Source of the DNA: a virus
DNA: 42,649 nucleotides
Direction: 5' to 3' (one strand)
IMG/VR virus record: IMGVR_UViG_3300042865_000288
Span: 1 to 42,649 of that record
Numbering within the stretch: the first letter of the stretch is position 1; the number at the start of each line of letters is the position of its first letter. Of this stretch, positions 16,001 to 34,484 are shown piece after piece. A model generated the notes under the pieces. It was not told the DNA's origin, did no database searches, and saw only the letters and a list, made by a program, of their open reading frames with translations. The translations under genes were made by a program, and so were the position numbers.

Positions 16001-19000
16001 TCAAAACTTGGCAATTCTACTCCACATGGTACAGTTAGAAAAACAGTTTAGTGGTATGGATTCATTAGAAATGTCATTTAGTCCTGATACAGGGCTTATG
16101 GATACTACTCTTCAAGTTAAGAAAAGAGATGATGCATTCAAAATGTTTGATGAGTCATCCAAGATTGATTCTGATTTCTTGAAAAGACTTAGGCATAATT
16201 CACTTCTGTCATCATTCTATAAGAGTGATTTGATCATGGATCTTGTAGTTCCTTTGTTTTCATTAAGACTTAATGAATCTATCTCAGGTTTTATTGAGAA
16301 GAAGATTGAACAAAACAAAGACATGATTGCACAAAAATTTGGGCCAGGTTTACAAGGTCAAGAAAGATTTATCAATATGTACAATAATGCTGTGGTAAAT
16401 TACATCTTCCAAAATACTATGTCTAACTTCCCAGATAAGACTGGTAATCCAGTTATTCTTCCAGAAGAATTACATACTTATCCGGTAACTCAAGTTGAGA
16501 AAGGACCAGCTGTTGTTTTAAATGAAAAAGGTTTCAGAGTAAATATTAAACAAGCTGAAGAAGACTATGCAGCAAAAATCTTTTTAAGCAATAATAACAC
16601 AGATAACAGTTATGCTAGTACTGGTCAAGATACATTTGATGCCGGTCAAAATCCTTTCCCAACATTTGCTAGCTACTTAAAGTTTATAGTTGAGAAAGAA
16701 TATGCAAGCAGTGTTTATACTGATAAAGATGATAAGTTCATAACTGAAAGAGCTTTGATGAATAGCTTCAACCGCGCATACATTATGGGTACTACAAAGT
16801 ATTCATATACAACCTTGGTAATGGACACCATTAATGAGTTTGAAGATCAAAACATTAAAGAAAACTATCCTGTATTATCACAGATTGCTCCTGCAAAATT
16901 TGTTAAGGATGCAAATGTATTAGAGCTTAATGATAAAGCAACTGCCAAAGGTGCAATTGCAGATGACTATTATAAGAATCTAAAACAACTTGCTGACCCT
17001 ACTGTAAGAAAAGTACAGAACAAAGAAGATAACAAAAGAATCAGTGATGTATTTAAGAACTTCTCTATGCTTATGTTCTATCAACATGGAATGGGTTATT
17101 CTAAACTTGGATTCCCAAAAATCTTAGACCCAGAAGCATTTACTGAAGTAATGCAGAATGCAGCTAATAGTTTCTTAAATAATAACTTGGATGAACAAAC
17201 ATTTGAAAGAATCTATGCTAGACTTAATACTAAGAGTCAATTTAAAGATTATACAGTTGATCCAAGTAAAATGGATGAACCAGAAACTATTGAAGCTTTA
17301 CTAGATACACTATCAGATGATGCACTTGCAGAAATGGCTAATTTCCTAGGTACTGGAACATCTACACCATCTACTCAACCTACTGAAAGAAAAACCTACT
17401 CAGGTAAAGTAACTAATTTACAACCTAATCAAATATTTGTATTTGGAAGTAATCCTGAAGGAAGACATGGTGCTGGTGCTGCTAAATATGCAAAAGATAA
17501 TTTTGGGGCTATTTATGGACAGGGAGAAGGTCTTCAAGGGCAAAGTTATGCTTTACCTACTAAAGACTTAAGAGTAAAAGAGAATAATGGTTTAAGATCC
17601 ATTTCATCTAAAGACATAACTTCTAATATTAAAAAATTATATGATATTGCAAGGCAAAACCCTACTAAAGAATTTTTAGTATCAGATTATTCTGGAACTA
17701 ATCTTAATGGTTATACAGGCCAAGAAATGGCAGATATGTTTTCTGAGGCAGGACTTATACCTAATAATATTGTGTTTCATGAAAACTTTAATAAGTTAAT
17801 AACTACTCAACCTACTCAATCTACTGAAGCATCAGAATATATAAATTATTCTGGTGGAGCAATAGGTAGTGATACAATATGGTCAGAAATAGGTAAAGAA
17901 TTTGGAATAGGTAAACAAGTAGATTATAAACCACAAACTTTACAAAAACTCACTTCTGAACAAGTTAAAGAAGTTGAAGATGCTTATCAAAAAGCAGCAA
18001 GTGATTTAGGAAGAAAAGCATTAGAATATGATTGGAATAACCCTAATGCTAAAAATGCCGAAGGAAAAAGTATTTATTATTCAGGTGGTTTAGTAAGAAG
18101 AGATTATCTTCAAGCTAAAGCAGCAGATGCAGTATTTGCAGTGGGTAAAATTTTAGAACAAGGAGATACTAATAGTAAAGGTTATAAAGTAAAAGCTCTT
18201 CAAGTTGATGGTGGTACCGGATATGCTGTACAAATGGCCATTAATCTTGGTAAACCAGTATATGTATTTGATCTAAATTATAATGTTTGGATGAAATATA
18301 ATCCAGAAGGCCTTGTAGACTCAGATATACCAGGACAGAAAGGTAGATTTGAACAAACTGATACTCCTATTTTAACAAAGAAATTTGCTGGTGTTGGTAC
18401 TAGAGAAATAACTGAAGCTGGTAAACAAGCTATTAGAGATGTATATACTAATACATTTGCAACTCCTACCACTCAACCATCTACTCAACCTACTGAAGCT
18501 CCAGTAAGTAATACTAATAAACCTAAAGGTGAAGAAGTAGTACCTGGAATATATGTAAATCAAGCTGCTTTAACTAAAGAAGAACAACTTGAGTTATTTG
18601 ATTATTTAAAACCATATCTTGAAGAACAAGCTGCCAAAACTAATAAAGGAACACAAGCTAGTAAAATGATTGGTCTTGGTTTAAGATGGGATTACAAAAG
18701 TAATAATGTAGGAAGAACAGCAATTAATATTCCAGATGTAATTAATCCAGGTAATAAAAACAAATATGGATATTATGATGTATCTATTAATGATCAACCC
18801 CTTGGACAAATTACAGCAAGATTTAGAGAGCTAATGCAAAAAGCTACCGGAGTAGATATGACAAACTATGATGGTGCTATTATTAATCTTTATGAAAAAG
18901 ATACCTTTATATCTTCTCATAATGATGTAGATGAAAGCAAGTCAGCTATTAAGTATCCAGTTATTGGTATTAATCTAGGTGGTAAAGGTAATTTCTCAAT

Positions 19001-19436
19001 TGAAAGAATACCAGGAGCAGGTCAATTAAGTTTAGAAGCCGGAACAGGTTATATATTTGGTGTTGATGGTGTTAACAGAGAAGTATGGCATAGAACATTC
19101 CCAACTCCACAAGATACATTTTTACCAGAACTTACTACAAAAATTGATGGTAAAACATATCCTGCTGGTTCTTATAGAGTTACTATTACTATGAGAAGGG
19201 TTACACCTTTAGAACCTGGTATGCCTACAGCACCAGCTAAGATTACTACCCAACCTACAGCTATTGAGACTGCTGCAGCAACACCGTTAGATAAAATAAA
19301 TGAATTTTATAACAGTCTTACTCAGGAACAAAAAGATAAATTAGGTAACTTAGATGACTTGATTGCTGAGTATAATGATGTTCCGTTTGACTATCCGGTA
19401 GAAGATTATATTGAAAGTATTAAATGTAAGTTATAA
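7047..19436 (+). CDS. Giant single-chain phage RNA polymerase with extra peptidase, SLOG-like and AlkB-like modules
   Basis: This 4129-residue protein is the crAss-like phage RNA polymerase. The catalytic double-psi barrel is clear: an RIPT motif (residues 2486-2489) precedes DFDVD (2525-2529, nt 14619-14633), whose three Asp residues would hold Mg2+, matching DFDID of the characterised phi14:2 enzyme and NADFDGD of cellular beta-prime. A likely beta-type barrel lies upstream (MHK at 2150-2152, GSGSKVG at 2187-2193), Lys2152 and Lys2191 being candidate conserved lysines. Other parts: an acidic stretch near 133-145; a zincin-like HEAWH (872-876); and, beyond the polymerase, three modules joined by Thr-Gln-Pro linkers: a FVFGSN/GRHGAGAA family (3450-3585), a SLOG-like fold (YSGGAIGSD, DGGTGYAVQMA, FAGVGTRE; 3597-3805), and an AlkB-like 2-oxoglutarate/Fe dioxygenase (His3958, Asp3960, His4015, Arg4044/4050). 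Cys4 and Cys4127 are its only cysteines. Probably packaged to transcribe early genes after entry (inference). The downstream ATG overlaps its TAA. Confidence 0.93.
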   Translation: MISCPITQLPLENFYKYVFRAIKDRLGNDKTFDVNDFMEKLFEESVKNADPETAAKWLQSTPRVINLIITKSFSDKIPLVKGLDSIYGLMTDFAKPNGEGFQNVLKKYSKPVDTKDLKETAAHQLSLEFSDEEEEDSDEEKNEEKTTKPNTTARLKTPVVMSGTLQSFLPVKPEEKTDTYIEKLDQPRAKILTNLGILGDAFNMSDPFSGDFTYQGKKIKVKATNLYAFSQQHFNELDPTTQDEIRQSGLFTAINRAQEGVTQADKRVILVITDDTGENLYFDEEGNITSKGNGSMVYQFMRDVRKTPKGYTVTDIYGKEEQLMPVATYAAMTYNPKIDGDMATYIETVKDQREKELKRLFEIREKALGNEVQLEFSGLSTGITSDLTATKIPLSDFLKIPGSTKKSLKTIRTLKLAEGNFKKGRAVINLNGTDFQVNRSSMPDSIADQIAAVMFDPNIPFETKKDFYSQFIPEDSETKLAYTMRKHEIIPDTAKGTFRIKLYDTVGDSFGFTTEPIFDFVISKSSLTKASKEQLEKGIKTLSDTLKTGRKNNKPTYMSYKSDLLNSEDYLVYNSNTKQIEIGNYIDFLSTLDGYVDLFDGDPGFYNKHMLFNEPTKLDKEIKKANEAVTKTFEEEVAEAMREADERRALENANKSPIEREADIIKDRALSSEYRDTLAAQGSQGRYDSFYYTASLIQSINNNRDIRYTRESAEQLRDMFVGARYISGKQIDAVNAAIDALFPKGNTEAQNTVEIIQKTVEPEMPDPTKINPVATKKGSLLSRIPKTGSLDRSGYIADEIGEEDTAKVLDWWNNTELGKELQKHIALEHAYNLVNSDVFARFIIDGSTLTNPDIKGKIQINKGKGTLVDIYHEAWHAFSQLYLTRQEKYDLYDEVINYKDSKGKQPYKSMNYKEVDELLAEDLRTYMKSNYIKKGSPMRNKIFRKIMNFLRALFGLQPINATEVITDVMNVPAVREMFEKLNYSSNKKSFVRSYQANIKNVDFFELNRGISKLNRPSDSALSDQDSRKVSDAMDMVISDVIDEMYEERLAEAEETGNYNSLKSGTIGMLLDPELRAFTYTVVKERLQDKLDYFKNKLHSEPGIAPFSEIKTLEDIESNAVAVLKSAKGEDKYVFLKSQIDGFDNLNPEMKKGTRVKGESWHGIKIVGDFFSHKSIKKDAKPVNIIVVSNLEDAQVQYDNYVAGGAKDYIDIELKDIPEYNISAEQELTLDNVRILQAAIDNYGDPEWDIKGIEPTGTIAYHLQNSDFDISKNKYDLELDEEGEEIDADVQDQTRDSETQFGGEAGNKKSLLQLASKEVIYILKSLHKVDRSGEISYDRFGFKERADFRKVWNIVTKAIGGIRDRVEVYDRLMAESANFPEIAQLIKTKFPNPKLITNSFEQDVSNSFWQTFAKPSVKYYQYTVFPQYADGADMFGNPINYIKGYESDVTQSSIEVDSTIRKFEALFKGSIANQFIEKNADNQSMLKLDSVIEAFENKKYPGQLDTSKAFEFAAALGMKLDNLPVIKKSLQDEAEYYGLPYFYDIIKDFNAIQKAQKATPEQIEFLNKFISNPVGTLRGEIPKGVLKSFRKEVAEKNILKRIAELQSQYGYDSANPGILLPDGNRVFENVNHSQVTVTVDTINKVENLEDLWTKPEFKFMSHWRPGKSFFTLRSKVIGSMFDTTNGTFEKKGDKYLEFLMTAGTQFAEIEGINTADLDKLGKFQQEFHTFTLGGIAEFIRHAEKKSAFGIKQAGGKMKVIVNGITNGVDQNLYIDLSKFAPKPGQQITDGEIVAAGGYFFDYIAAEFDRIRYFKQNPQDLKNIKGYNREIKDANGKVIGRAGEFFTAFDNILTKATKNKLYELANDPVIDLPIYIKNNQDLYLDIQNDIVAYFNEKVMSVKENYFDKMTYIDDKVYEKAGVSKAENEIDESKEVLIKGYLYNDWIHKFEMFNMFNGDLAQFNHDKQEASKRAPGSTSDGDGFVNDKYMHEFINKVFNKKTYAQKLAKETGLDLDKFVMDGTLNTGVIADAERKSVYLDDYLNAWEEQYRANLTPIIKDKAKLETEIKRRLAKDAKAYKEMKESDGAAFMTLDAYRTIKKMGNNWGIPQEALYQQIVNGEEVDPLKVKEFFPIYKLHYYGSIANAPIATTAMHKFAVAPIIPTIAVKGTELYNLHVKMLKSNIQYVTFGSGSKVGTLTTDGNFDNIFGNEEQNTVSMDAPIKNNQIYLEYLKDVTKVASKLKKEISYPTQKRVLLLDSLYNVGEIMHKSHENIANNYKASVDEYTNTLTLDLLNKIGYEYDPKTEKYVGKLDKFIELIRDELGMKEVPEHLIKLLDVTLADNLSMDFSIHPEADTLEKIIVNRIQKSVVKQKTKGESLVQAPSTFYNGVWDSAYQRDEAIKKNDELIKKYLGSNNLPFYMTSFDENGKRLATAAMKVAIPLNGDFLNILKLKHPDGNPIGTRDRLNDLIKNEEWLNENRELITIVGPRIPTDAANTMEFAEVWHFIDASAGNTVIVPTEIVAKAGSDFDVDKIFFMMPNINPDGTMVKAPAESLKELTEMVKEGNKLNKKQRKEKGLKNPQVLIDQYKKAVQNKLIRNTREILSLPENLANLTKPNNTYLVEDHVDFYDKYNRGYDNKKNAHEEPVRINDDKEVMSPTRVFDIEYNLSQHESNLSGSLPLGIMAKKNKIHTLFKSVGAIMPKSYKATVWNDEAKKYDELPAEYNVVIRMPYNKTRNSAGQEVVSLSSEVNVDGEKIGDIFSHGLQGLLDRAKNPFPFKLQIVKEALSTINHLIEAGVGVAETFAFVNNPWIVKYIQRQMQYSGSTSKFLTIPIPKNQVKSQAMRDVIDELAQYGGNEMKKTIFQLANYANDRRLYDIIDVIKSKDKNIRYEFTLDNGTELSKPLSATAERILSKDFPLDKIFTLKESEPNKSFDDQKTLFQRSPGIANNDNFYYAAEAAWRRAFGYQTELKADDLQKFVREGSSPTIQNLAILLHMVQLEKQFSGMDSLEMSFSPDTGLMDTTLQVKKRDDAFKMFDESSKIDSDFLKRLRHNSLLSSFYKSDLIMDLVVPLFSLRLNESISGFIEKKIEQNKDMIAQKFGPGLQGQERFINMYNNAVVNYIFQNTMSNFPDKTGNPVILPEELHTYPVTQVEKGPAVVLNEKGFRVNIKQAEEDYAAKIFLSNNNTDNSYASTGQDTFDAGQNPFPTFASYLKFIVEKEYASSVYTDKDDKFITERALMNSFNRAYIMGTTKYSYTTLVMDTINEFEDQNIKENYPVLSQIAPAKFVKDANVLELNDKATAKGAIADDYYKNLKQLADPTVRKVQNKEDNKRISDVFKNFSMLMFYQHGMGYSKLGFPKILDPEAFTEVMQNAANSFLNNNLDEQTFERIYARLNTKSQFKDYTVDPSKMDEPETIEALLDTLSDDALAEMANFLGTGTSTPSTQPTERKTYSGKVTNLQPNQIFVFGSNPEGRHGAGAAKYAKDNFGAIYGQGEGLQGQSYALPTKDLRVKENNGLRSISSKDITSNIKKLYDIARQNPTKEFLVSDYSGTNLNGYTGQEMADMFSEAGLIPNNIVFHENFNKLITTQPTQSTEASEYINYSGGAIGSDTIWSEIGKEFGIGKQVDYKPQTLQKLTSEQVKEVEDAYQKAASDLGRKALEYDWNNPNAKNAEGKSIYYSGGLVRRDYLQAKAADAVFAVGKILEQGDTNSKGYKVKALQVDGGTGYAVQMAINLGKPVYVFDLNYNVWMKYNPEGLVDSDIPGQKGRFEQTDTPILTKKFAGVGTREITEAGKQAIRDVYTNTFATPTTQPSTQPTEAPVSNTNKPKGEEVVPGIYVNQAALTKEEQLELFDYLKPYLEEQAAKTNKGTQASKMIGLGLRWDYKSNNVGRTAINIPDVINPGNKNKYGYYDVSINDQPLGQITARFRELMQKATGVDMTNYDGAIINLYEKDTFISSHNDVDESKSAIKYPVIGINLGGKGNFSIERIPGAGQLSLEAGTGYIFGVDGVNREVWHRTFPTPQDTFLPELTTKIDGKTYPAGSYRVTITMRRVTPLEPGMPTAPAKITTQPTAIETAAATPLDKINEFYNSLTQEQKDKLGNLDDLIAEYNDVPFDYPVEDYIESIKCKL
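17361..19265 (+). repeat. Thr-Gln-Pro linker repeats separating RNA polymerase tail modules
   Basis: Four in-frame copies of a Thr/Gln/Pro-rich linker lie in the 3' end of the polymerase gene: nt about 17361-17387 (STPSTQPTE), 17803-17828 (TTQPTQSTE), 18468-18500 (TTQPSTQPTEA) and 19243-19265 (TTQPTAIE). The first three share the DNA phrase ctactcaacctactgaa or a near copy. They flank and separate the three accessory modules, so they look like flexible tethers and also like short homologies through which modules could be exchanged or lost. Confidence 0.85.
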
Positions 19437-20359
19437 TGAGTTGTATTAATAAGGCAGATAAAGCATATAAAGCATTGCAGAGTGTCTACGGAGATGCTCT
19501 TGCAGAAGCTTTTGTCCGGGCTCATCCTTTTAATAAAGGTAAGTCTGAAGATATGACCTTTGACATACCTAGCAAAAAGGAAGTCAAAGACTGGCTTACT
19601 CAACAGAAGTTAAACATTCCAAAGAATGTAAAGAGAGCTATGGAAATTAATCCATATCTATCAGAGAATGCTATCAAAAGTATGCTTAAAGGAGTTATTA
19701 GTAAGCACAAGGATGCTTACTTTATAACAACAGGTTGGATATTTTCTGGATCAACAACACTTGGTCAAGAAGTTTTTGAAACCATCTATAAACCTAACAT
19801 GCAGGTTATGGAAAAACTTCAAGATGAGTACCCAGATATATTCAGACTTAAAGGAACTAAAAATACATATACTACTGTTGTTGAAATAACACCAAGAGTA
19901 AAAGAGGAAACAGCTCCGGAAGAAGAAGACCTTGATGAAGAGATAGTTACTTCTGAAGAACCAGAAATAGCGGAAAGTCTCCGTACATATAGATCAATTG
20001 TAGACATGAATAATGGCCGTAAACCTGTAGAGTTTATGGCAGGTAACTTTAAATGGCAATTAAACAAAAATGGTTTATACAATCTAGTTGACAAGTTTAC
20101 CAATGATGTATATGTAAGAAATATGGATTTAGATACTGGAGAGATGATTCCGGAAATAGATCCTGGAACCCCGGCATCTGAAGAAAAAAGAGATAGAATA
20201 TTTAGATCAGTAATGCAAATGATTAGAGAACAAAAATTAGATGAGTATCTTGCTGTAAAAGGCATTGACACTGCAGATATCTATGAATCTCTAAGAGACG
20301 CAGAGACAGATAGAGATTTAAATAAAGTTATAGAAACATTATTAAAAGCAATATGTTAA
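19436..20359 (+). CDS. Unknown virion-block protein with terminal cysteines
   Basis: This 307-residue protein starts at an ATG whose A is the last base of the polymerase stop codon (TAATG), so translation is probably coupled. No known family is recognised. Residues 1-65 form a small helical domain with the motif DIPSKKEVKDWL (about 43-54), which recurs almost identically in a small minus-strand gene at 23967-24215. A Glu/Asp-rich linker lies at about 157-180, followed by a second helical domain. The only cysteines are Cys3 and the very last residue, Cys307. The last codons overlap the next gene: the TGT of Cys307 lies within the ATGTTAA that starts it. Context between the RNA polymerase and the 1144-aa protein suggests a virion or polymerase-associated role, which is inference. 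Confidence 0.85.
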   Translation: MSCINKADKAYKALQSVYGDALAEAFVRAHPFNKGKSEDMTFDIPSKKEVKDWLTQQKLNIPKNVKRAMEINPYLSENAIKSMLKGVISKHKDAYFITTGWIFSGSTTLGQEVFETIYKPNMQVMEKLQDEYPDIFRLKGTKNTYTTVVEITPRVKEETAPEEEDLDEEIVTSEEPEIAESLRTYRSIVDMNNGRKPVEFMAGNFKWQLNKNGLYNLVDKFTNDVYVRNMDLDTGEMIPEIDPGTPASEEKRDRIFRSVMQMIREQKLDEYLAVKGIDTADIYESLRDAETDRDLNKVIETLLKAIC

Positions 20360-23300
20360 GTTGTCCAAGAAAAACAAGTAGAGAATGGCAAGATGTTCTT
20401 GCAAGAGCTAACGGTAATGAAGATGAGGCAAGAAGAATCTGGATTGAAGAAGAGTTTGAATTCAATCCTGATTTAAATATTGAGGTTAATGATGATAACT
20501 ATGAAGATGAGCGTGAAGGTGAGCCCGGTCAAGAAGAGCTGGAGCCTAATGATGACTTCTCTAAACTAATCCAAAGAATCAAGATCTATATAAATAAGCA
20601 AATTGAGATACTTAATAGTAAGAAGATTGCTAATGTTAAGTACAAGCAAAGTAAATTGAATGAGCTACTTAATGCAGTAGAAACAATGGACGGTGTTGCA
20701 TCTATAAATGTCTTTATAAAAGATGCATATGATAAAGCAAAGCAAGTACAAACCAGATTTGCTAAGCTACTTGTAAATAAAAACAAGATGAGTTCTAAGG
20801 AAATCATGATAGAACTTACCGGTATAAATGACTTTGCAAACAGTTATTCAATATTAGATGAGATAGACTCAGCTGACATCATGAATTACTTTAGCACTAG
20901 TGATACTGAAGAAGGAGCTATTGGACCAATGACTCCTCAAAAAATGCTAGCTGAAGCAATAAAAATCCGTGACAAGGTAAAAAAGAAAGTTGTTACTGAA
21001 GCTATTCCACTCATGGCAGAGTATTTAGTTGAGTATAAATCTACTCTACAAGACAAAACCATTCCTGAAGAAATAGCCAGAATGGAACAACAAATAAAAG
21101 ATATTGAAGCTAATCCTAAAATGTCTGATAAAAGAAAAGAAAAAGAAATTAAAAAACTAGAAGATAGACTGAAGCTGTTTGAAGGATTTGATATTGACCA
21201 AGGATCAATGGAACAAATACTAAAAATGGCTAATAGAGATGAGGGTGTTATTGACTTTCTTATATCTCCACTTATTACATCTTCTGACAGTGCATTAGCT
21301 TTATTTGCTAAGTCAATCAAAAGCCAGTTAGAATTTGCAAGACAAAAAGATATCAAAGTAAGAGACAGATTAGTATCAGCTTTTGAAAAGTATAGAAACA
21401 CTGCTCCTGCTTCTTCTGATAATACTGCAAAATTTAATGAGGGTATTTATGATGAAGTTGAGATACCTGTATATGAAAAAGATGGTACTATTTCCGGAAC
21501 AAGAAAAGAACTACAGTTTGTACAGAAGTTTAACATGGGTGAGTTCAATAAAGCAAAGAAAGAGTTCTTTGATAAGTTAGGACCAATGCCACAAAAAGTA
21601 GGAGAAAAAGCTACTAAAGAAGAAGCAGCTAAAATAAAAGCTTGGTGGGAAGCTAGAAACAAATGGTATGCTGATAATACGCAACCAAGACCAAAAGCTG
21701 AAAGAGATGCTATCATTCTACAGATGCAGAAAGATAGAGACAATAAGCTGATAAGTGAAGATGATTACAATAACTGGCTTAGAAAGAATGTCAGAGAATA
21801 CAAAGGCGCAGTATCTTACTTTGATGATTTAGCAACTCCGTCTAATAAATATAAGAGTGATAAATGGAATGCTATGTATGACTCTAATGATGTTCCTAAG
21901 AATGAGAAAGGTAGATATCATGAAGAGTTACTTAAGATTTATTTTGAAGCCCAAGCTAAACTTCCAGAATCACAACAAAAAGGTTTTAGGCTACCTTCTA
22001 TTTCTAAGTCTGATCTAGAAAGAATAATGCAAAACGGTCTCAAAGATTTTGTTACTACAAATCTTAAAGAAGCTGTTAAAGTACAATCATGGGATACAGA
22101 GTTTGGATTAGGTAGCTTATCTGAAGAAGATGTTAAGTTCCTGCCGATATATTATACACAGCAGATGGATGTTAAGGATGTAACATTAGACTTAGCAATG
22201 TCAGTCCTTGTATTTAGTGCTATGGCTAATAAGTATGAGGCTATGAATAATGTAAATGCCGAGATATCACTTATGAAAACTATTGTTGGGGCCCGTAAAG
22301 TTCCGGAAACAAATAGTAAAGGTCAAGCTGTCTTAGATGCATTTGCAAAAAAGCTTGGTTATGAAGAGTATATCCGTCAGAATGGAGAGAGCTATTCTAA
22401 AAAACACTTAGATGCATTTATTGATATGGTCATCTATGGTGAGATGCAAAAAGCTGAAGAAATCTTTGGTGGTTTATCACTTACTAAGATAACTAATTCA
22501 GCTATGTCATATTCAGCAATTACTACAATTGCGGCTGACTTACTTAAAGGTGTAGCTAATAATCTACAGGGAAATATTCAGGTATTAATTGAGGCAGCTG
22601 GAGGCCAGTTCTTTAACCGTAAAAATTTAAGAAGAGGTAAAGCTTTTCTTGCTAAAAATCTACCAAGTGTATTAGCTGATTTTGGTAAGCCTGCACCCAC
22701 AAGTCTTCTAGGAAAACTAGTAGAGAAGTTTGATCCAATGCAAGGTAACTTCAAAGATAACTATGGTAAAAAGGTGAGTATGAGCAGATTAAATAAGCTT
22801 ATGCGAACTGATACTTTATTCTTTAACCAGCACTTTGGGGAGTATGAGATTCAAGTTTCTACTATGTTAGCCTTATTTGATAATATCAAAGTATTAGATA
22901 AAGCCACAGGAGAGGAAATAACTCTACTTCAAGCTTACAATACTTACGGTGCAGATGAAGCGCACAGCAAAATAAAAATTGCCAAGACCAATAGTAAAGG
23001 TGAAGTAGAAACTGATGATCAAGGTAATACTGTATACATTCCTTTTGGTGAAACTCAGAGACAGGATATACAAGCTAGACTTCACGGTTTGAATAAATAC
23101 ATGCATGGTGTTTATAATGACTTTGATAAAGGTACTTTGCAGAAATATTCTCTTGGTCGCTTAGTATTAATGTATAGAAAACATGTGGTACCTGGATACA
23201 AAAGAAGATTCAAACGCGTATCTATGGATCATGAGATTGGTACACCAACAGAAGGATACTACAGAACTTTTGCAGATACAATGCTCTCTGACATAAAACA

Positions 23301-23787
23301 GTACAAGTTTAATATAATTAAGAACTGGTCAACATACACTCCTTTTCAAAAAGCACAGATAGCAAAAGTACTTACTGAACTTACAATTATTCTTAGCTTA
23401 GCTACATTAGCATTTGTATTAACTAGACTACTAGTTAATCCAGATGATGATGAAAGAGATCCTATCCAAGATAACTTTGGTTACAACTTCCTATTGTATG
23501 AAACACTGAGGATGAGATCTGAAACTGCATCATACATTAATCCTATTGATGCTATCCGGGTTATGAGATCACCATCAGCTATGACTAGTACAATAGATAG
23601 GGTGATTAAATTTATGAATCAAGTAATGCCTTGGAATATTACTGAAGAGTATAAAAGAGAAACAGGAATATGGAATAAAGGAGATAATAAAGCTTGGGCA
23701 GCATTTATAAAACTTATGGGTTTCTCTGGATACAATACAAATCCAGAGCAAGCATGGAAATCATTTGAATCATCATTCTTTAAATAA
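20353..23787 (+). CDS. Giant virion-type protein with C-terminal membrane segment
   Basis: This 1144-residue protein begins MLSCPRKTSREWQDVLARA; the start overlaps the previous gene by seven bases (ATGTTAA). The N-terminal CP...EW...A...W pattern resembles, from memory, N-termini of other large crAss-like virion proteins; residues 4-45 probably form a small targeting or docking module. Residues about 70-300 are long charged helices, probably coiled coil. Residues about 1009-1032 (ELTIILSLATLAFVLTRLLV) form one convincing transmembrane helix, followed by an acidic NPDDDERD segment. Cys4 is its only cysteine. No catalytic motif is visible. It is the last large gene of the plus-strand block, so a packaged cargo or membrane-channel role during DNA entry is plausible but inferred. 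Confidence 0.85.
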   Translation: MLSCPRKTSREWQDVLARANGNEDEARRIWIEEEFEFNPDLNIEVNDDNYEDEREGEPGQEELEPNDDFSKLIQRIKIYINKQIEILNSKKIANVKYKQSKLNELLNAVETMDGVASINVFIKDAYDKAKQVQTRFAKLLVNKNKMSSKEIMIELTGINDFANSYSILDEIDSADIMNYFSTSDTEEGAIGPMTPQKMLAEAIKIRDKVKKKVVTEAIPLMAEYLVEYKSTLQDKTIPEEIARMEQQIKDIEANPKMSDKRKEKEIKKLEDRLKLFEGFDIDQGSMEQILKMANRDEGVIDFLISPLITSSDSALALFAKSIKSQLEFARQKDIKVRDRLVSAFEKYRNTAPASSDNTAKFNEGIYDEVEIPVYEKDGTISGTRKELQFVQKFNMGEFNKAKKEFFDKLGPMPQKVGEKATKEEAAKIKAWWEARNKWYADNTQPRPKAERDAIILQMQKDRDNKLISEDDYNNWLRKNVREYKGAVSYFDDLATPSNKYKSDKWNAMYDSNDVPKNEKGRYHEELLKIYFEAQAKLPESQQKGFRLPSISKSDLERIMQNGLKDFVTTNLKEAVKVQSWDTEFGLGSLSEEDVKFLPIYYTQQMDVKDVTLDLAMSVLVFSAMANKYEAMNNVNAEISLMKTIVGARKVPETNSKGQAVLDAFAKKLGYEEYIRQNGESYSKKHLDAFIDMVIYGEMQKAEEIFGGLSLTKITNSAMSYSAITTIAADLLKGVANNLQGNIQVLIEAAGGQFFNRKNLRRGKAFLAKNLPSVLADFGKPAPTSLLGKLVEKFDPMQGNFKDNYGKKVSMSRLNKLMRTDTLFFNQHFGEYEIQVSTMLALFDNIKVLDKATGEEITLLQAYNTYGADEAHSKIKIAKTNSKGEVETDDQGNTVYIPFGETQRQDIQARLHGLNKYMHGVYNDFDKGTLQKYSLGRLVLMYRKHVVPGYKRRFKRVSMDHEIGTPTEGYYRTFADTMLSDIKQYKFNIIKNWSTYTPFQKAQIAKVLTELTIILSLATLAFVLTRLLVNPDDDERDPIQDNFGYNFLLYETLRMRSETASYINPIDAIRVMRSPSAMTSTIDRVIKFMNQVMPWNITEEYKRETGIWNKGDNKAWAAFIKLMGFSGYNTNPEQAWKSFESSFFK

Positions 23788-28988: not shown

Positions 28989-30008
28989 TTACAATTTTAC
29001 ATTACCAACTGCCAGGTCATATGGAAGATCATATCTCTTGTTCTGATAATGCCATTCAGCAATTTTAAGAACTTCTCTAAAATCTTTCTTCCATTGAACC
29101 ATGGATTCTTCAGACACTTGGAATGGATAAACTAAATTGTATTTATCAATTACAATAAAGGTTACTTGAATATTCCATTCATGTCTGTCTGGTGCATCTT
29201 TCAAAAACTTTTCTGCAGCTAGTACAAGATAGATAACAGCTTGTATCCAATACTTATAGTATTCAACAGCTTCAGGAAAATCCTGAATAGACTTACCAGT
29301 TGTTTTTAAGTCATTAACAAAGATGGTTTTACTTTCTCTGTCAACAACCACATTATCAAGAAACCCATGAAGACCAAAAGGTAATTGATCATGATCCATT
29401 TGAATAAGCAACTCATTATAAACTTCAATGTGATCATCTTCCTCAGTTTTATCTAGTTGTAATAAAGCTCTAATATCTTTATTACTTTTCAGTACTTCAA
29501 CAGCAACTTTGCAGCCATCCAAAGTAGGTTGATCTACTACTGTTTTGTCTAGACTTTGCTTAAGGAATTCAAAATACTCTTTGTTCTCTTCAGTGAGAAT
29601 CTTGTCTAATCTTTGAATATCTGTTTTAAGATTCTGATAAAGATTTACTGTAATTAGCTGTGTGAGTATTTCCTGTGAGTAGTCATTCAAAGTTAATGAA
29701 TTATTTCCTACGGCCAAGTGATATTTAAAAATATTGTCAATAATTTTTCTTTGACTATCTGTAGGAAACTTTCCAGGCATGCTAAGAAACTTATCATTGT
29801 ATGCATCAGGTTCAAACAAGAGACAGTGCAGGACGCTACCACCTACTAGGTGTGCCTCCTTACTGTCTTCCCGCTGATTTAAAACATAGTGATTATAAAA
29901 TGCCGCTGGAGAAAATAGTAGTTTGTTAAGACCACTATAGCTGAAGTAAAACTTCTGTTTGTAAAATCTTTCTAGTTCATCAGAACCATTCAAAATCATC
30001 TCCGCCAT
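28989..30008 (-). CDS. PD-(D/E)XK exonuclease (RecB/phage exonuclease VIII-like)
   Basis: 339 residues. The N-terminus has YFSYSGLNKLLFSPAAFYNHY, the typical 'S-x-S-x-L' start of phage PD-(D/E)XK exonucleases, then VGGSVLHCLLFEP with His61. The catalytic part is HGFLDNVVVD (Asp218), FVNDLKTTG (Asp233-Leu-Lys235), and YKYWIQAVIY with Gln256 in the conserved helix. Families with this layout degrade DNA ends to make single strands for recombination or recycle host DNA. Together with the Sak4-like ATPase (38971-39696) and the SSB-like protein it would make a phage recombination set (inference). The start overlaps the end of the upstream acidic-tailed protein by 29 bases. Confidence 0.88.
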   Translation of the reverse strand: MAEMILNGSDELERFYKQKFYFSYSGLNKLLFSPAAFYNHYVLNQREDSKEAHLVGGSVLHCLLFEPDAYNDKFLSMPGKFPTDSQRKIIDNIFKYHLAVGNNSLTLNDYSQEILTQLITVNLYQNLKTDIQRLDKILTEENKEYFEFLKQSLDKTVVDQPTLDGCKVAVEVLKSNKDIRALLQLDKTEEDDHIEVYNELLIQMDHDQLPFGLHGFLDNVVVDRESKTIFVNDLKTTGKSIQDFPEAVEYYKYWIQAVIYLVLAAEKFLKDAPDRHEWNIQVTFIVIDKYNLVYPFQVSEESMVQWKKDFREVLKIAEWHYQNKRYDLPYDLAVGNVKL

Positions 30009-31332
30009 TTGTCTCTTCTATTTGATTGTTATTTGATACTGTATCAGAATCATTTTCTGGTTTATTTAATTCAGATTCGGAAACTACCGGTTCTGGTACT
30101 AAAACTATTTGATCTTCCTCAGCTTCATTAGTAGGTATTTCTTCTATTGAATCTATGTCAGCATCTTCAGCTGGTTTTTCATCAGGTATTAGATCTTCTC
30201 TAACTTCATCTGTATTAACATCTTCATGTGTATTAATTTCAGATTCAGGAACAGATGGTACAAAATCAGCCTGAGTTTGATAAGAATAGTTAACATTCAT
30301 TTCTTCAAGAAGCTCTGGATCTATAGTTACACTTTTCATTTTAAAGTATCTACTATTACCATTTCTTACTACATCATCTTGAATGTAACCTAGTACTTTG
30401 TCAAGTTTATCCGGAGTAAGTTGACCCTTTTCTCTTAAAATCTTAACAGCACTGTCCATATCAATATGAGGATTACTAGCAGTAATATCTAACCAGCTTA
30501 ATAAAGATTTGAAATTAACATGATTCTTAGTATGCATATTATATATTGCACTACCATGATTATAAAACAACATCATGAGATGAACTAGACTAGCACTATA
30601 CTTACAGTTAGCCATGACCTCCATTGCAAGAATCTTATTATCATTATCAGAACTATCAAGCATGGTAGATAGCTGTTTGTATATCTGATCATCAATAATA
30701 GCAGCATCATCACCATTTAACTGATCAATAATAGTTTCCTCATCATAGATAGTTAGACCATTTATAGCACTCATTATATCTACATAATCTTCTTTAATAA
30801 ACCATATTCTTTCAGAATCAGATCTAAATTCTTTCTTATTTCTTACATAGACATTAATAAGCATAGCGGTAGGTCTATCAGTATAAACATGCTGTTCAGT
30901 ATAAAATTCTAAAGCATCAACTATCTTTTTATAATGAAAAGTATCAAGTTTACTGTTAAACTCACTCATATTAACTAATGCTTTGAAATCATCAGTTTTT
31001 ACTTTATAGTCCCAATTAAAATCCAGTAATTTACTATAGCTATTATTGTTTGCAACAAATATATTTGCCTTAGCTACATCTCTTACAGTTCTAATACCTT
31101 TCTCATCACAAAGATTTTTGAACTTAACTCTTGGTACATTTACTCCAGGTAAAAAATAAATTCTGTCACCGTTCTGAGGAATATAATCTTTCTTCTCAAT
31201 AGTAAATACATCTTCTCTCTTAGAACTACCTGTTAGAACACCTATAGTATAAGTGTGTTCTTTACCCATGTCACTCCATTCATCAGTCCAGTGACCCATG
31301 TCTGAATTAAAATTTAAAATAGTTTTGCTCAT
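29980..31332 (-). CDS. Unknown protein with HEAT-like segment and acidic tail
   Basis: 450 residues. The N-terminal about 110 residues look beta-rich (HTYTIGVLTGSSKREDVFTI, GDRIYFLPGVNVPRVKF); residues 221-260 (LSTMLDSSDNDNK...FYNHG) match, without gaps, residues 14-53 of the 135-aa protein at 34077-34484 and look like a HEAT-type helical hairpin. From about residue 360 the chain is acidic and disordered, ending GGDDFEWF, reminiscent of SSB acidic tips. No known family or catalytic motif. It follows a terminator and is translationally coupled to the exonuclease gene by a 29-base overlap, so it may act with it (inference). Confidence 0.72.
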   Translation of the reverse strand: MSKTILNFNSDMGHWTDEWSDMGKEHTYTIGVLTGSSKREDVFTIEKKDYIPQNGDRIYFLPGVNVPRVKFKNLCDEKGIRTVRDVAKANIFVANNNSYSKLLDFNWDYKVKTDDFKALVNMSEFNSKLDTFHYKKIVDALEFYTEQHVYTDRPTAMLINVYVRNKKEFRSDSERIWFIKEDYVDIMSAINGLTIYDEETIIDQLNGDDAAIIDDQIYKQLSTMLDSSDNDNKILAMEVMANCKYSASLVHLMMLFYNHGSAIYNMHTKNHVNFKSLLSWLDITASNPHIDMDSAVKILREKGQLTPDKLDKVLGYIQDDVVRNGNSRYFKMKSVTIDPELLEEMNVNYSYQTQADFVPSVPESEINTHEDVNTDEVREDLIPDEKPAEDADIDSIEEIPTNEAEEDQIVLVPEPVVSESELNKPENDSDTVSNNNQIEETNGGDDFEWF

Positions 31333-31339
31333 AATAATA

Positions 31340-31370
31340 AAAATTAGAGAGGGACATTTACGTCCCCCTC
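31340..31370 (-). terminator. Intrinsic terminator after the MoxR-type ATPase gene
   Basis: Minus-strand stem GAGGGGGAC / GTCCCTCTC (one G-U pair) with a six-base loop, followed by TAATTTTTATTATT. The T-run is less pure than in the other four terminators. It sits between the ATPase stop (31429) and the start of the next gene (31332). Confidence 0.7.
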
Positions 31371-31428: not shown

Positions 31429-32619
31429 TTACTTAACAGCCATCTTCACCACGGTAGAATCAAGCATCAGCTTGGAAAACTTAAGTTTATTTCCGTTAAC
31501 TACCTCTTTAATGATATAATATTTTAAGTCATCAGTAAAAGAGTCACAGTCTGTAGTAAGTTTAATTAACCTTTTAATCATTGCATCTGGTACAGATTTA
31601 GTTTCTGCAAAGTGTAATGAATAATTAATTACCCTAGTTGCTATTACACTAGAAATATCTGCACGGAAGTCATCATCTTTACCAACAGCATTAACTAATG
31701 AATTCATTACATACTGCTCATCTTTGGTTAAGATATCTTCAGGACTAATAATTTTATCCAGTTTATTGTTAATAAACATAGTAAACATAGAACTGAAATC
31801 AATTCCTACAGAACCTTCACCAATCATTTGAATAAGAGGTAGCTTGTCTTCAAACTTAGGAATAGAACTAATAGAATCAAAGAACTTAGTAATAATCCTA
31901 GCATTAGTTTCCTTAGTAACTAACTCTGGATGCATTAGCATAAAGTTAATTGCTCTGGAATCTACATTGTTTCTCTCAGCCCACTTAGCCCATACATTTA
32001 CATCAAACTTAAAGTCAACAGAAATATATCTGGTTTGCTGAGCTAAATCCTGAGCATTTACCATATAATCTCCATCATCAGGATTCTGAGATAAAATGAT
32101 ATGCCAGTTCTTAGGAAGCTTCCAAGAAATATATTCTTGTCGGTCAATTAACTCCATACAAGCTTGAGTAAATCTAGTATCAGCTCTGTTGAAATCATCA
32201 ATTAACAAAATACCACCTTCACCCTTACCTTGAATCCATTCAGGAGCGGCATAAGCCATCCTCTTATTTACAATTTTATATCCTTTCTTTACAGCAGCAT
32301 CAATTTGTTGTTCTACAATCCAAGTAGTTTTACCCTCTGCATTCTGAATCTGAAATTCTTTTACTGGAAACCCAACCAAGTCACCAATCTCTTCTACCTG
32401 AGCTAAATTAATCTTAACTAAATCAAAGTTTAGTTCTTGAGCTAGCTCAATAATACTAGAAGTTTTACCTGTACCCGCTTCACCGGTAACACTCACACTT
32501 ACAGGAACTTTTCCTTGTAATTGAATATGCTGATTATTGTCTACAACATGTCTTAAGAAATCTTTTAATTCTTCAGAGTTTAACTGTACTTGTCTTTTCT
32601 CAACTTTTTTTCTTGCCAT
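31429..32619 (-). CDS. MoxR-type AAA+ ATPase
   Basis: 396 residues. Walker A is GEAGTGKT (46-53), Walker B LLIDDFN (138-144), sensor-1-like LSQNPDDG near 176-183, with an IQGKGEGG insertion just before Walker B, as in MoxR-family ATPases. Such ATPases act as chaperone-like remodelers together with VWA-domain proteins. Its partner is very probably encoded immediately upstream: a metallopeptidase-VWA protein (32786-34093), with a 50-aa hydrophobic protein in between. The gene has an A-rich leader and is followed by a terminator. What the pair remodels in a phage cannot be read from the sequence. Confidence 0.9.
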   Translation of the reverse strand: MARKKVEKRQVQLNSEELKDFLRHVVDNNQHIQLQGKVPVSVSVTGEAGTGKTSSIIELAQELNFDLVKINLAQVEEIGDLVGFPVKEFQIQNAEGKTTWIVEQQIDAAVKKGYKIVNKRMAYAAPEWIQGKGEGGILLIDDFNRADTRFTQACMELIDRQEYISWKLPKNWHIILSQNPDDGDYMVNAQDLAQQTRYISVDFKFDVNVWAKWAERNNVDSRAINFMLMHPELVTKETNARIITKFFDSISSIPKFEDKLPLIQMIGEGSVGIDFSSMFTMFINNKLDKIISPEDILTKDEQYVMNSLVNAVGKDDDFRADISSVIATRVINYSLHFAETKSVPDAMIKRLIKLTTDCDSFTDDLKYYIIKEVVNGNKLKFSKLMLDSTVVKMAVK

Positions 32620-32636
32620 TGTTTTTGTTTTTTAAA

Positions 32637-32789
32637 TTAATATTTCCAATTAAAACCTATTTCAAACAGAGGAGTAATATGTAAAGCATATACACTAGCT
32701 TTATCATCTACAGTACTCTTACTAACACCAATTAAGAATGGTATAATCCAAAAGAATTTTGTTTCTAGTTTTCCATTATATTTTTTCAT
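32637..32789 (-). CDS. Small hydrophobic protein between VWA and MoxR genes (50 aa)
   Basis: ATG at 32789-32787 overlaps the TGA of the VWA gene by four bases (ATGA), and the ORF ends TAA at 32639-32637, 17 bases before the ATPase ATG. The product starts MKKYNGKLETKFFWIIPFLIG, a basic N-terminus followed by a short hydrophobic stretch, and ends FEIGFNWKY. This could be a signal anchor or an exported peptide. No family recognised. The ATGA coupling and snug fit support it being a real gene. Confidence 0.6.
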   Translation of the reverse strand: MKKYNGKLETKFFWIIPFLIGVSKSTVDDKASVYALHITPLFEIGFNWKY

Positions 32790-34093
32790 AACTCAAGTTT
32801 TATGACCCTTCCCGGCAGGTCTGTGTTCATATGGGATCTTTCAGATAATACCCAAAGAGTTTTGCCCTTTGGAGTAATAGATGCTGTTGCTTCACCATCT
32901 GTAAAATATACAAGACTTGTAAATGTACCTAGATTATCATTAAAGAATTCTAAGACAGGATCAAAATATGTTCCTCCTCTACCTATTACATTCAATTCAA
33001 ACTCACCAGTATACTTTTCAATACTATTTATCCTGGTATCACATTGTATAATAGTAATGTCAACTCCTGCTCTATAGATATGATGTATCTCATTCATAAA
33101 TTCCATAAGCTCATCATTACTTACAGAACCAGAAGTATCTATTGCTAATAACATGTGCTGTCTCATCTTTATCTTAAGACCAGGATTCTCAGGAAACTTT
33201 CTGTTTTCTTTTCTCCGGATTTTCTTTGTAAAGACTCTTGTACTAACACCAGTAAATCTTCTGATATATCCGCGCCAGTCAAACTTAGGTGGTTCAATAT
33301 CTTCAATTTCTATGAGAGCTTCAACTTCTCCAGGAATAGTTCCCTGTTTCTTAATAGTTTGCTCCTTAGCATCAGACAATAATTTTTGTAACTGCTTGTC
33401 TAATAACTTTTGCTCAGCTTCACTAATTCCTTCAAAGTCTTCCCAGGTACCATGGTCAGGAGTGTTTCCTTGTTCCATATTATCAAGAAGTTGGTCTAGT
33501 GCTTCATTACCAGTGGTACCATTCTTCTCTTTTTCATCTTGAGCTTCTTTCAACTTGTCATAATAATATCTGCAACCAGCCTTAGCATCCCAACCCTTGT
33601 CAGCATAGTCTTCAAAGAGAATGCCTCTAGGAGGAATGTTCTTATATTCTTCTAATGCTTGTTCAGGAGTCATAGATTTATCTTCTAGACCTTGTGTTAT
33701 TTTATCTGTAATAGATTTAACAAGTGCTTGATACTGATCATGAGTATACTCATCTCCCGGAAGCCAACCTTTTTCAATATACTGGTTGATTTCCATATCC
33801 ATAGCTACATTAGCTCTTTTTCTATCGGAGAAGTTAAAATACATAGTTAAATGCCCAAATGCAATATGAAGTAACTCATGCTTTAGAATACCAAGTCTAT
33901 GGTCATCTGTAAGCTTAAGCCAGAACTCTTCATTAATTTCAAGTTGGTAGTTAATACCCATTTTACTTACTCCGGCTGTATCAAGACGGTCGCTCCAAAA
34001 CTTATTAAGCATAATAAGAAATATACCATAATAAGGTTCTTTGAGCATCAGGTCTTTACCTGCTTTACTCAGTAAATCATTTTTGTTCTGCAT
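32786..34093 (-). CDS. Metallopeptidase-like plus VWA-like domain protein (DUF2201 type)
   Basis: 435 residues with two recognisable halves. The N-terminal half has LKHELLHIAFGH (His72, Glu73, His76, His81), a zincin-type HExxH motif in the position usual for DUF2201-type putative metallopeptidases. The middle (about 180-265) is charged and helical. The C-terminal half has LLAIDTSGSVS (Asp319, Ser321, Ser323), the metal-ion-dependent adhesion site of VWA-like domains, plus ITIIQCDT and VYFTDGEA strands. In bacteria such proteins are paired with MoxR AAA+ ATPases, and a MoxR-type gene lies directly downstream here. The start overlaps the previous gene by 17 bases. Role in the phage unknown; possibly remodelling or processing of a large protein complex (inference). 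Confidence 0.87.
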   Translation of the reverse strand: MQNKNDLLSKAGKDLMLKEPYYGIFLIMLNKFWSDRLDTAGVSKMGINYQLEINEEFWLKLTDDHRLGILKHELLHIAFGHLTMYFNFSDRKRANVAMDMEINQYIEKGWLPGDEYTHDQYQALVKSITDKITQGLEDKSMTPEQALEEYKNIPPRGILFEDYADKGWDAKAGCRYYYDKLKEAQDEKEKNGTTGNEALDQLLDNMEQGNTPDHGTWEDFEGISEAEQKLLDKQLQKLLSDAKEQTIKKQGTIPGEVEALIEIEDIEPPKFDWRGYIRRFTGVSTRVFTKKIRRKENRKFPENPGLKIKMRQHMLLAIDTSGSVSNDELMEFMNEIHHIYRAGVDITIIQCDTRINSIEKYTGEFELNVIGRGGTYFDPVLEFFNDNLGTFTSLVYFTDGEATASITPKGKTLWVLSERSHMNTDLPGRVIKLEL

Positions 34094-34484
34094 CTTTAAG
34101 TGTTATATTAATTTCAAAACTACTTGTTGGGTACCCAATTTGTTCCAACATACTTGTCATATCTCTAACAAAATATTCCATAAACAACTCTATTGAAGTA
34201 TTAGAACCTTTATGTTCTGTAATAAGACTAAGAGTTCTTGGACTTGTCAGATTACCATCTCCAGTAATCTTTTTTAATTTATCATGTACTTTCTTTCCTG
34301 CTTCAGCCCACTCAGACTTTTGTACACCAGAATACTTATACATAACAAGTAATTCTCCTATGTATTTATCTATATCTACATTTTGCAATGCCTGCAATGC
34401 TACCACATGATTTTCTTTGTCAGAGGATTTCAACATATTAAGCAAATTTCTTGTTTCTTCTTTGTCAAAAATTAGTTTACCCAT
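34077..34484 (-). CDS. Small helical protein related to a segment of the 450-aa protein
   Basis: 135 residues. Residues 14-53 (LLNMLKSSDKENH...YKYSG) align without gaps to residues 221-260 of the 450-aa protein at 29980-31332, with 11 of 40 identical including the MLxSSDxxN core; the pattern resembles HEAT-type hairpins. The C-terminus looks beta-like (SSFEINITLKD). It is the first partner upstream of the VWA gene (17-base overlap) and is coupled to the 67-aa gene before it. No known family. Confidence 0.7.
   Translation of the reverse strand: MGKLIFDKEETRNLLNMLKSSDKENHVVALQALQNVDIDKYIGELLVMYKYSGVQKSEWAEAGKKVHDKLKKITGDGNLTSPRTLSLITEHKGSNTSIELFMEYFVRDMTSMLEQIGYPTSSFEINITLKDAEQK

Follow-up and report, generated by a model that had tools for sequence, protein, structure and literature searches.

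MoxR-type AAA+ ATPases encoded together with a protein that joins a metallopeptidase to a VWA domain have been described in jumbo phages, for which a role in virion assembly was proposed (Iyer et al. 2021, PMC7824862). In phage N4, such a pair corresponds to gp24 and gp25, two of the 14 genes that make up the shared core of 25 N4-like phages, where they are listed as unknown and vWFA domain (PMC4193335). Here, we examine a pair of this type in a 42,649-base viral DNA from IMG/VR (record IMGVR_UViG_3300042865_000288; "the window" refers to this whole stretch), in which it extends on the minus strand from position 34093 to 31429. The pair belongs to a phage family that is already known (N4 gp24/gp25; also AR9, S-TIM5 and jumbo phages), of which it is an ordinary example, and we found no published report of it in crAss-like phages, to which the window belongs. 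We propose, with a probability of roughly one half, that it is a phage-encoded MoxR/VWA AAA+ machine that would remodel the phage's own replication or transcription assemblies (or a seized host complex) in the early or middle phase of infection, rather than a protease that matures virions late. That such pairs remodel protein complexes, as an earlier note on this DNA had stated, is the accepted reading and has already been published for phages (PMC7824862).

The N4 pair of ATPase (gp24) and DUF2201_N-DUF2201 protein (gp25), together with its counterparts in Schitoviridae, resembles the window pair most closely: the same two families are encoded by adjacent genes on the middle, replication side of the genome, and their catalytic residues are kept. 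N4 differs in gene order (MoxR then VWA, the reverse of the window), in sequence (19 to 24% identity) and in having DE instead of DD in Walker B. The Group 2.2 pair of jumbo phages also consists of MoxR plus a zincin-VWA protein (Iyer et al. 2021, PMC7824862), although the proposal of virion assembly was made there for jumbo phages and the longest relatives of our crAss-like window are contigs of 114 to 123 kb. In Acidianus two-tailed virus (ATV), ATPase activity and interaction have been demonstrated for another viral MoxR-VWA pair, p618 (MoxR) and p892 (VWA) (PMC4124505); however, the peptidase domain is absent (PMC7824862), the virus is archaeal, and the pair has been assigned to tail development. 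Among the cellular systems, Midasin/Rea1, NorQD and RavA-ViaA are similar to the window pair in that an AAA ring works with a MIDAS domain, Midasin being the best Protein Data Bank (PDB) profile match for the window's MoxR and the Rea1 MIDAS being among the fold matches of the VWA model. Midasin is one giant chain that acts on ribosome precursors, and to our knowledge none of the three systems includes a zincin domain.

The VWA-zincin protein and the MoxR ATPase

The three open reading frames (ORFs) that the earlier note had described at this place are all present on the minus strand, and the order of transcription is g135, VWA, p50, MoxR, a terminator and gp450 (Table 1). Behind gp450 come a PDDEXK nuclease gene and, at a greater distance, the gene of a family B DNA polymerase (PolB); primase and DnaB genes lie upstream of g135. 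The pair is therefore located inside the replication block, as the note had it, on the strand opposite to the giant genes. The terminator that the note placed at the end of the unit is also real, with a terminator-like hairpin behind MoxR in all 59 loci that could be tested, the window among them, versus 31 of 400 random windows.

Judged by its profile matches, the VWA protein is a member of the DUF2201_N/DUF2201 zincin-VWA family and is predicted to be a peptidase. It matches the Pfam families DUF2201_N (putative metallopeptidase; E = 4.6e-15, 56.4 bits, curated cut-off 23.2) and DUF2201 (VWA-like; E = 1.4e-16, 61.1 bits, curated cut-off 26.4) and belongs to PHROGs family phrog_1314 (1.5e-57). 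The HELLH and DxSGS motifs pointed out in the earlier note are both present, at residues 72 and 319, with further MIDAS residues at G373-T375 and D399; the chance of HExxH and DxSxS occurring together in composition-matched shuffles of the protein is 0.1%. In an alignment of 35 sequences, which includes proteins of N4, AR9, phage G, cyanophage S-TIM5, Thermus phiFa and Moorella MTATph1 at 22 to 28% identity to the window, residues H72, E73, H76, H81, N95, A97, D99, N103, D319, S321, S323, G373, G374, T375 and D399 are invariant. The zincin and MIDAS motifs are also kept in all 86 VWA ORFs that were picked by similarity rather than by motif. Thus, the loss of these residues in orthologs, which the note had named as evidence against its idea, was not seen. 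An AlphaFold2 model of the protein (mean predicted local distance difference test score of 77, built from few distant rows) matches VWA folds with Z up to 12.8, including Rea1-MIDAS/Ytm1-UBL (Z = 11.6, root mean square deviation of 3.6, 160 aligned). Foldseek lists MDN1-MIDAS/NLE1-UBL and NorQD for the same model, none below E = 0.001.

Proteins with the DUF2201_N/DUF2201 architecture, such as N4 gp25, LIT1 gp35 and phage G gp576, carry the label "HNH endonuclease" in PHROGs and RefSeq, whereas Pfam identifies a metallopeptidase plus VWA. We rejected this label, because Pfam gave no HNH match for the protein encoded in the window at E up to 1, nor for N4 gp25, AR9 g029 and the homologues in LIT1 and MTATph1 at E up to 0.01.

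The ATPase, putatively of the MoxR branch of AAA+ proteins, has its best Pfam match to AAA_5, just over the cut-off (E = 1e-4, 22.8 bits, cut-off 22), and falls under that of AAA_3 (20.4 bits, cut-off 27); it belongs to phrog_1297 (2.4e-29). The PDB profile search ranked Midasin first (1e-30) and also returned 2r44, McrB and CobS. Walker A and Walker B are present as the earlier note had described, and the chance of a Walker A motif in composition-matched shuffles of the protein is 0.8%. In the alignment with other phages, P-loop residues G49 and K52, sensor N179, R197 and R241 are invariant and D141 is nearly so. The ATPase motifs are kept in 64 of 64 MoxR ORFs chosen by similarity, not motif. 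All 64 near-complete relatives from the lineage have DD in Walker B, and nearly all other phages have DE.

The presence of CobS and NorQD among the distant matches would fit a metal-cofactor insertion role, CobS/CobT chelatase-like or CbbQO/NorQD-like, in which the pair would be an auxiliary metabolic device for a host or phage metalloenzyme. We consider this very improbable: the CobS equivalog score is 15.6 bits against a cut-off of 558.55, none of the genes beside the pair was recognised as encoding a metalloenzyme or a chelatase large subunit, and a match to MoxR-VWA is shared by the class as a whole.

Conservation of the pair and its flanking genes

At least 596 IMG/VR stretches encode a relative; single loci carry labels such as L002 or L066, and the co-conservation counts refer to the best 80. 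MoxR is found downstream of VWA in 77 of the 77 loci with sufficient contig, at a spacing of about 11 to 71 nucleotides (nt) when neither p50 nor an insertion is present. Of 13 isolate phages from other groups, 11 also have the two genes side by side or 1 to 3 small genes apart (N4, EcP1, LIT1, nACB1, AR9, S-TIM5, XbC2, Muenster, phiFa, MTATph1 and Slicko01); in the remaining two, they are separated by about 4.4 kb (phage G) and about 45 kb (Vibrio phiKT1024). Co-conservation of the pair, whose absence the earlier note had named as evidence against its idea, therefore held. All 11 phages have MoxR before VWA, in contrast to the VWA-then-MoxR order of this lineage. Scans of IMG/VR with N4 gp25 and AR9 g029 recovered only those phages and one close relative. 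The two genes are partly mosaic within the lineage: loci L005 to L007 combine a window-like VWA (80%) with the other MoxR type (72%), and in L013 the MoxR is of the window-like type (82%) and the VWA is the more distant one (73%).

The window comes from a crAss-like phage of a lineage related to phi14:2 (Crassvirales), as indicated by matches of its RNA polymerase proteins to those of phi14:2 and by matches of the phi14:2 large terminase (TerL) and major capsid protein to long relatives of the window. Its 1,144-amino-acid (aa) protein (20353-23787) matches the RNA polymerase-associated protein g65 of phi14:2 (E = 1.8e-50), and its 4,129-aa protein (7047-19436) matches the catalytic subunit g66 (E = 4e-15), with which it shares the motif SDFDVDK/SDFDIDK (SDFDVDK around residue 2525); TerL and major capsid protein of phi14:2 match seven of seven long relatives tested. 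Neither a MoxR nor a VWA gene was found in phi14:2 or crAss001, and so the pair is a trait of the lineage and not a core crAss-like trait. The conservation in crAss-like phages that the note had suggested checking thus extends across the window's lineage and not to these two phages. The note had also regarded giant multi-domain proteins as natural clients. This idea is unsupported: phi14:2 encodes related giant proteins of the RNA polymerase block without either gene, which implies that such proteins do not require the pair, and we rejected them as an obligate client, crAss001 also being without the pair.

Just upstream of VWA, g135 is found in nearly all loci with enough flank. It shares a domain with the central part of gp450, with the signature SSD-x-(D/E)N (hhalign probability 95.9, E = 5.5e-9), and a g135 hidden Markov model (HMM) recovers gp450 proteins at E down to 4e-10. 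Only two copies of this domain were detected in the window, those of g135 and gp450. Across 22 dereplicated loci, pairwise distances of VWA correlate with those of gp450 (0.83), MoxR (0.78), g135 (0.63), PDDEXK (0.48) and g115 (0.11), from which we conclude that g135, VWA, MoxR and gp450 share their inheritance with one another more than with adjoining genes. The gene that correlates best, gp450, is not the one nearest to VWA. Of the compact three-gene unit in the earlier note, the pair stands and p50 as a conserved member does not; the unit extends to both flanking genes and is better drawn as g135-VWA-MoxR-gp450. We regard g135 and gp450 as the likeliest direct partners of the pair in this lineage.

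The AlphaFold2 model of gp450 is confident over residues 1 to about 330, followed by a disordered acidic tail of about 100 residues with a conserved aromatic tip. In relatives, the tail ends in (D/E)(F/I)(E/D)WF with few exceptions, which we take to be reminiscent of the tips of single-strand DNA-binding proteins. Foldseek gave no significant match for the model (best E = 0.084), and the resemblances found by structure comparison with VIA-align, to BRCT for the N part (Z = 5.9) and to HEAT/ARM for the centre (Z = 6.3), are below the trustworthy level. No relatives of gp450, g135 or p50 were found by tblastn among 50,697 isolate phage records, and an HMM search detected none of g135 or gp450 in N4. 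We rejected homology of g135 to the small genes that separate MoxR from VWA in LIT1 and nACB1, since there was no HMM match.

These neighbours allow a more specific and rather doubtful scheme of a four-gene module, in which MoxR and VWA-zincin would be the motor, gp450 a scaffold of the replication complex, and g135 either an adaptor or a competitor. In this scheme, the domain common to g135 and gp450 would be held by the MIDAS domain, and the AAA ring would remodel or clip the replisome, acting as a phage Midasin-like switch.

Stage of action and alternative roles

By analogy with MoxR-VWA and Midasin systems, we infer that the MoxR ATPase would form a ring with the VWA protein as its partner. 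The C-terminal MIDAS domain would grip a client via a metal-bridged acidic contact, ATP turnover would pull on or rearrange that client, and cleavage may be added by the zincin domain at the N terminus.

Evidence on timing comes from relatives. The N4 genes gp24 and gp25 are middle transcripts (PMC4193335), and the AR9 pair (g028-g029) follows an annotated early promoter; of the 43 virion proteins of AR9, 41 are late (PMC5312081). In EcP1, LIT1 and nACB1, the pair is just before helicase and polymerase genes. The main text of the CRISPRi-ART paper contains no result for N4 gp24/gp25. Middle transcription in N4, the early promoter in AR9 and the location in a replication block together favour a role during the infection stage.

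The published proposal for jumbo phages (PMC7824862) leads to a different expectation, namely, that the MoxR ring and VWA-zincin act late as a chaperone-protease that assembles or trims structural proteins. It agrees with the adjacency of structural genes to the pair in XbC2 and S-TIM5 and with the ATV precedent, in which p618 is in the virion and binds p892 and structural proteins (PMC4124505). We regard virion assembly or maturation as possible and clearly less probable than infection-stage remodelling, given the expression of the N4 and AR9 homologues, the location of the window pair and the fact that phi14:2, which has related giant proteins, makes its virion in the absence of both genes. 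Moreover, the two genes are not among the rows examined of the LIT1 virion table, if its numbering is that of GenBank (PMC3715699).

Early or middle expression in relatives would also fit a remodeller or protease directed at the host, or acting in counter-defence, whose VWA protein would recognise a host complex (RNA polymerase, a defence assembly or a protease) for the machine to dismantle. The fully conserved zincin site and the patchy distribution across phages of different hosts are consistent with such a function, which we nevertheless consider unlikely. PADLOC gave no match for VWA and only weak generic ATPase matches for MoxR, a Lar-like anti-restriction neighbour was seen only in EcP1, and very strong conservation with core status in N4-like phages is unusual for a counter-defence gene.

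Several observations weigh against remodelling in the early or middle phase. In addition to the virion role of ATV p618/p892 (PMC4124505), one peptide of a homologous ATPase has been detected in particles of phage DC4 (PMC10638138), and the early promoter of AR9 may leave room for late expression as well. The E-to-D change in Walker B may slow ATP hydrolysis. Co-divergence was measured across 22 related loci and is in part a consequence of physical linkage, and because relatives of g135 and gp450 are seen only in this lineage, they cannot be a universal client. On balance, we favour infection-stage remodelling over virion maturation by about 2:1.

Accessory elements and significance

The earlier note had described p50 as a hydrophobic 50-aa protein coupled by ATGA and as the third component of the unit. 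The overlap and the size are as described, and the hydrophobicity is only weak (grand average of hydropathy [GRAVY] 0.07, best 19-residue mean 0.89, best run FFWIIPFLIGV), so that a membrane protein is unsupported. The ratio of nonsynonymous to synonymous polymorphism (pN/pS of about 0.11 to 0.29) signifies purifying selection and hence a real gene. At this site, p50 is complete in only 3 of the 80 loci (L002, L036 and L048; the copy in L003 is cut by the contig end), and three of nine IMG/VR copies from a dedicated scan sit elsewhere, which led us to reject it as a third subunit; it is an optional accessory gene. In L087, L088 and L089, p50-like sequence occurs away from VWA, around 3779-4150, in a reading frame that continues past the p50 end.

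MoxR is interrupted in 6 of the 80 loci by seven insertions in total, L066 carrying two. They lie within Walker A (..GDAGL/GKT; L035, L039 and L066) or just after Walker B (..DDYTRAD/HRF; L011, L038, L066 and L067) and contain ORFs of GIY-YIG type (two Pfam-checked, L035 and L067). Four of these insertions match group I introns in Rfam (72 to 80 bits), and those in L038, L039 and L067 gave no match. Intron-rich core genes are known in crAss-like phages (PMC7886860). That group I introns sit at Walker A and directly behind Walker B points independently to strong conservation of these sequences. In L077, a GIY-YIG/NUMOD1 ORF (2531-3319) lies between VWA and MoxR, and its end, GQVIKLEL, copies the VWA C terminus GQVIRLEL; it seems to be a homing-type insertion carrying a copy of the 3′ end of its target gene.

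Table 1. Features of the locus in the window and insertion regions of MoxR in related loci (positions of the latter are those of the locus named).
Feature	Position	Strand	Basis or remark
g135; domain common with gp450; candidate adaptor; overlaps VWA start by 17 nt	34077..34484	-	Loci comparison, HMM
VWA protein, 435 aa; N-terminal zincin-like metallopeptidase domain (DUF2201_N), C-terminal VWA/MIDAS domain (DUF2201)	32786..34093	-	ORF, Pfam, PHROGs, alignment, model
HELLHIAFGH zinc-site motif, VWA residues 72-81	33851..33880	-	H72, E73, H76, H81 invariant in 35 sequences
DTSGS MIDAS motif, VWA residues 319-323	33125..33139	-	D319, S321, S323 invariant
p50, accessory small ORF, 50 aa; ATGA overlap with VWA stop	32637..32789	-	Real but optional gene
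MoxR-type AAA+ ATPase, 396 aa	31429..32619	-	Pfam, PHROGs, alignment, PDB profile search
Walker A GEAGTGKT, MoxR residues 46-53	32461..32484	-	Motif search, alignment
Walker B ILLIDD, MoxR residues 137-142; DD instead of DE	32194..32211	-	Motif search, alignment
Intrinsic terminator after MoxR	31347..31370	-	Kept across relatives
gp450, downstream of MoxR; central domain common with g135; acidic tail ending DFEWF; candidate client or scaffold	29980..31332	-	HMM, model, co-divergence
MoxR insertion region with GIY-YIG-type ORFs, L066	5320-8645		
MoxR insertion region with GIY-YIG-type ORFs, L035	3480-4590		
MoxR insertion region with GIY-YIG-type ORFs, L039	1490-2590		
MoxR insertion region with GIY-YIG-type ORFs, L011	7643-8719		
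MoxR insertion region with GIY-YIG-type ORFs, L067	9716-10791		
MoxR insertion region with GIY-YIG-type ORFs, L038	2755-3830		

The new details here are the VWA-then-MoxR order, the domain common to g135 and gp450, the co-divergence of gp450 with VWA, the DD of Walker B and the group I introns in the MoxR genes of relatives. Such pairs are part of the core of N4-like phages and are present in many giant phages as well, and many public records label the VWA protein as an HNH endonuclease. An intact pair in a crAss-like lineage, with invariant zinc and MIDAS sites and accompanied by two neighbours that co-diverge with it and share a domain, provides concrete candidates for its partners and argues for a role in the infection stage over one in virion maturation.

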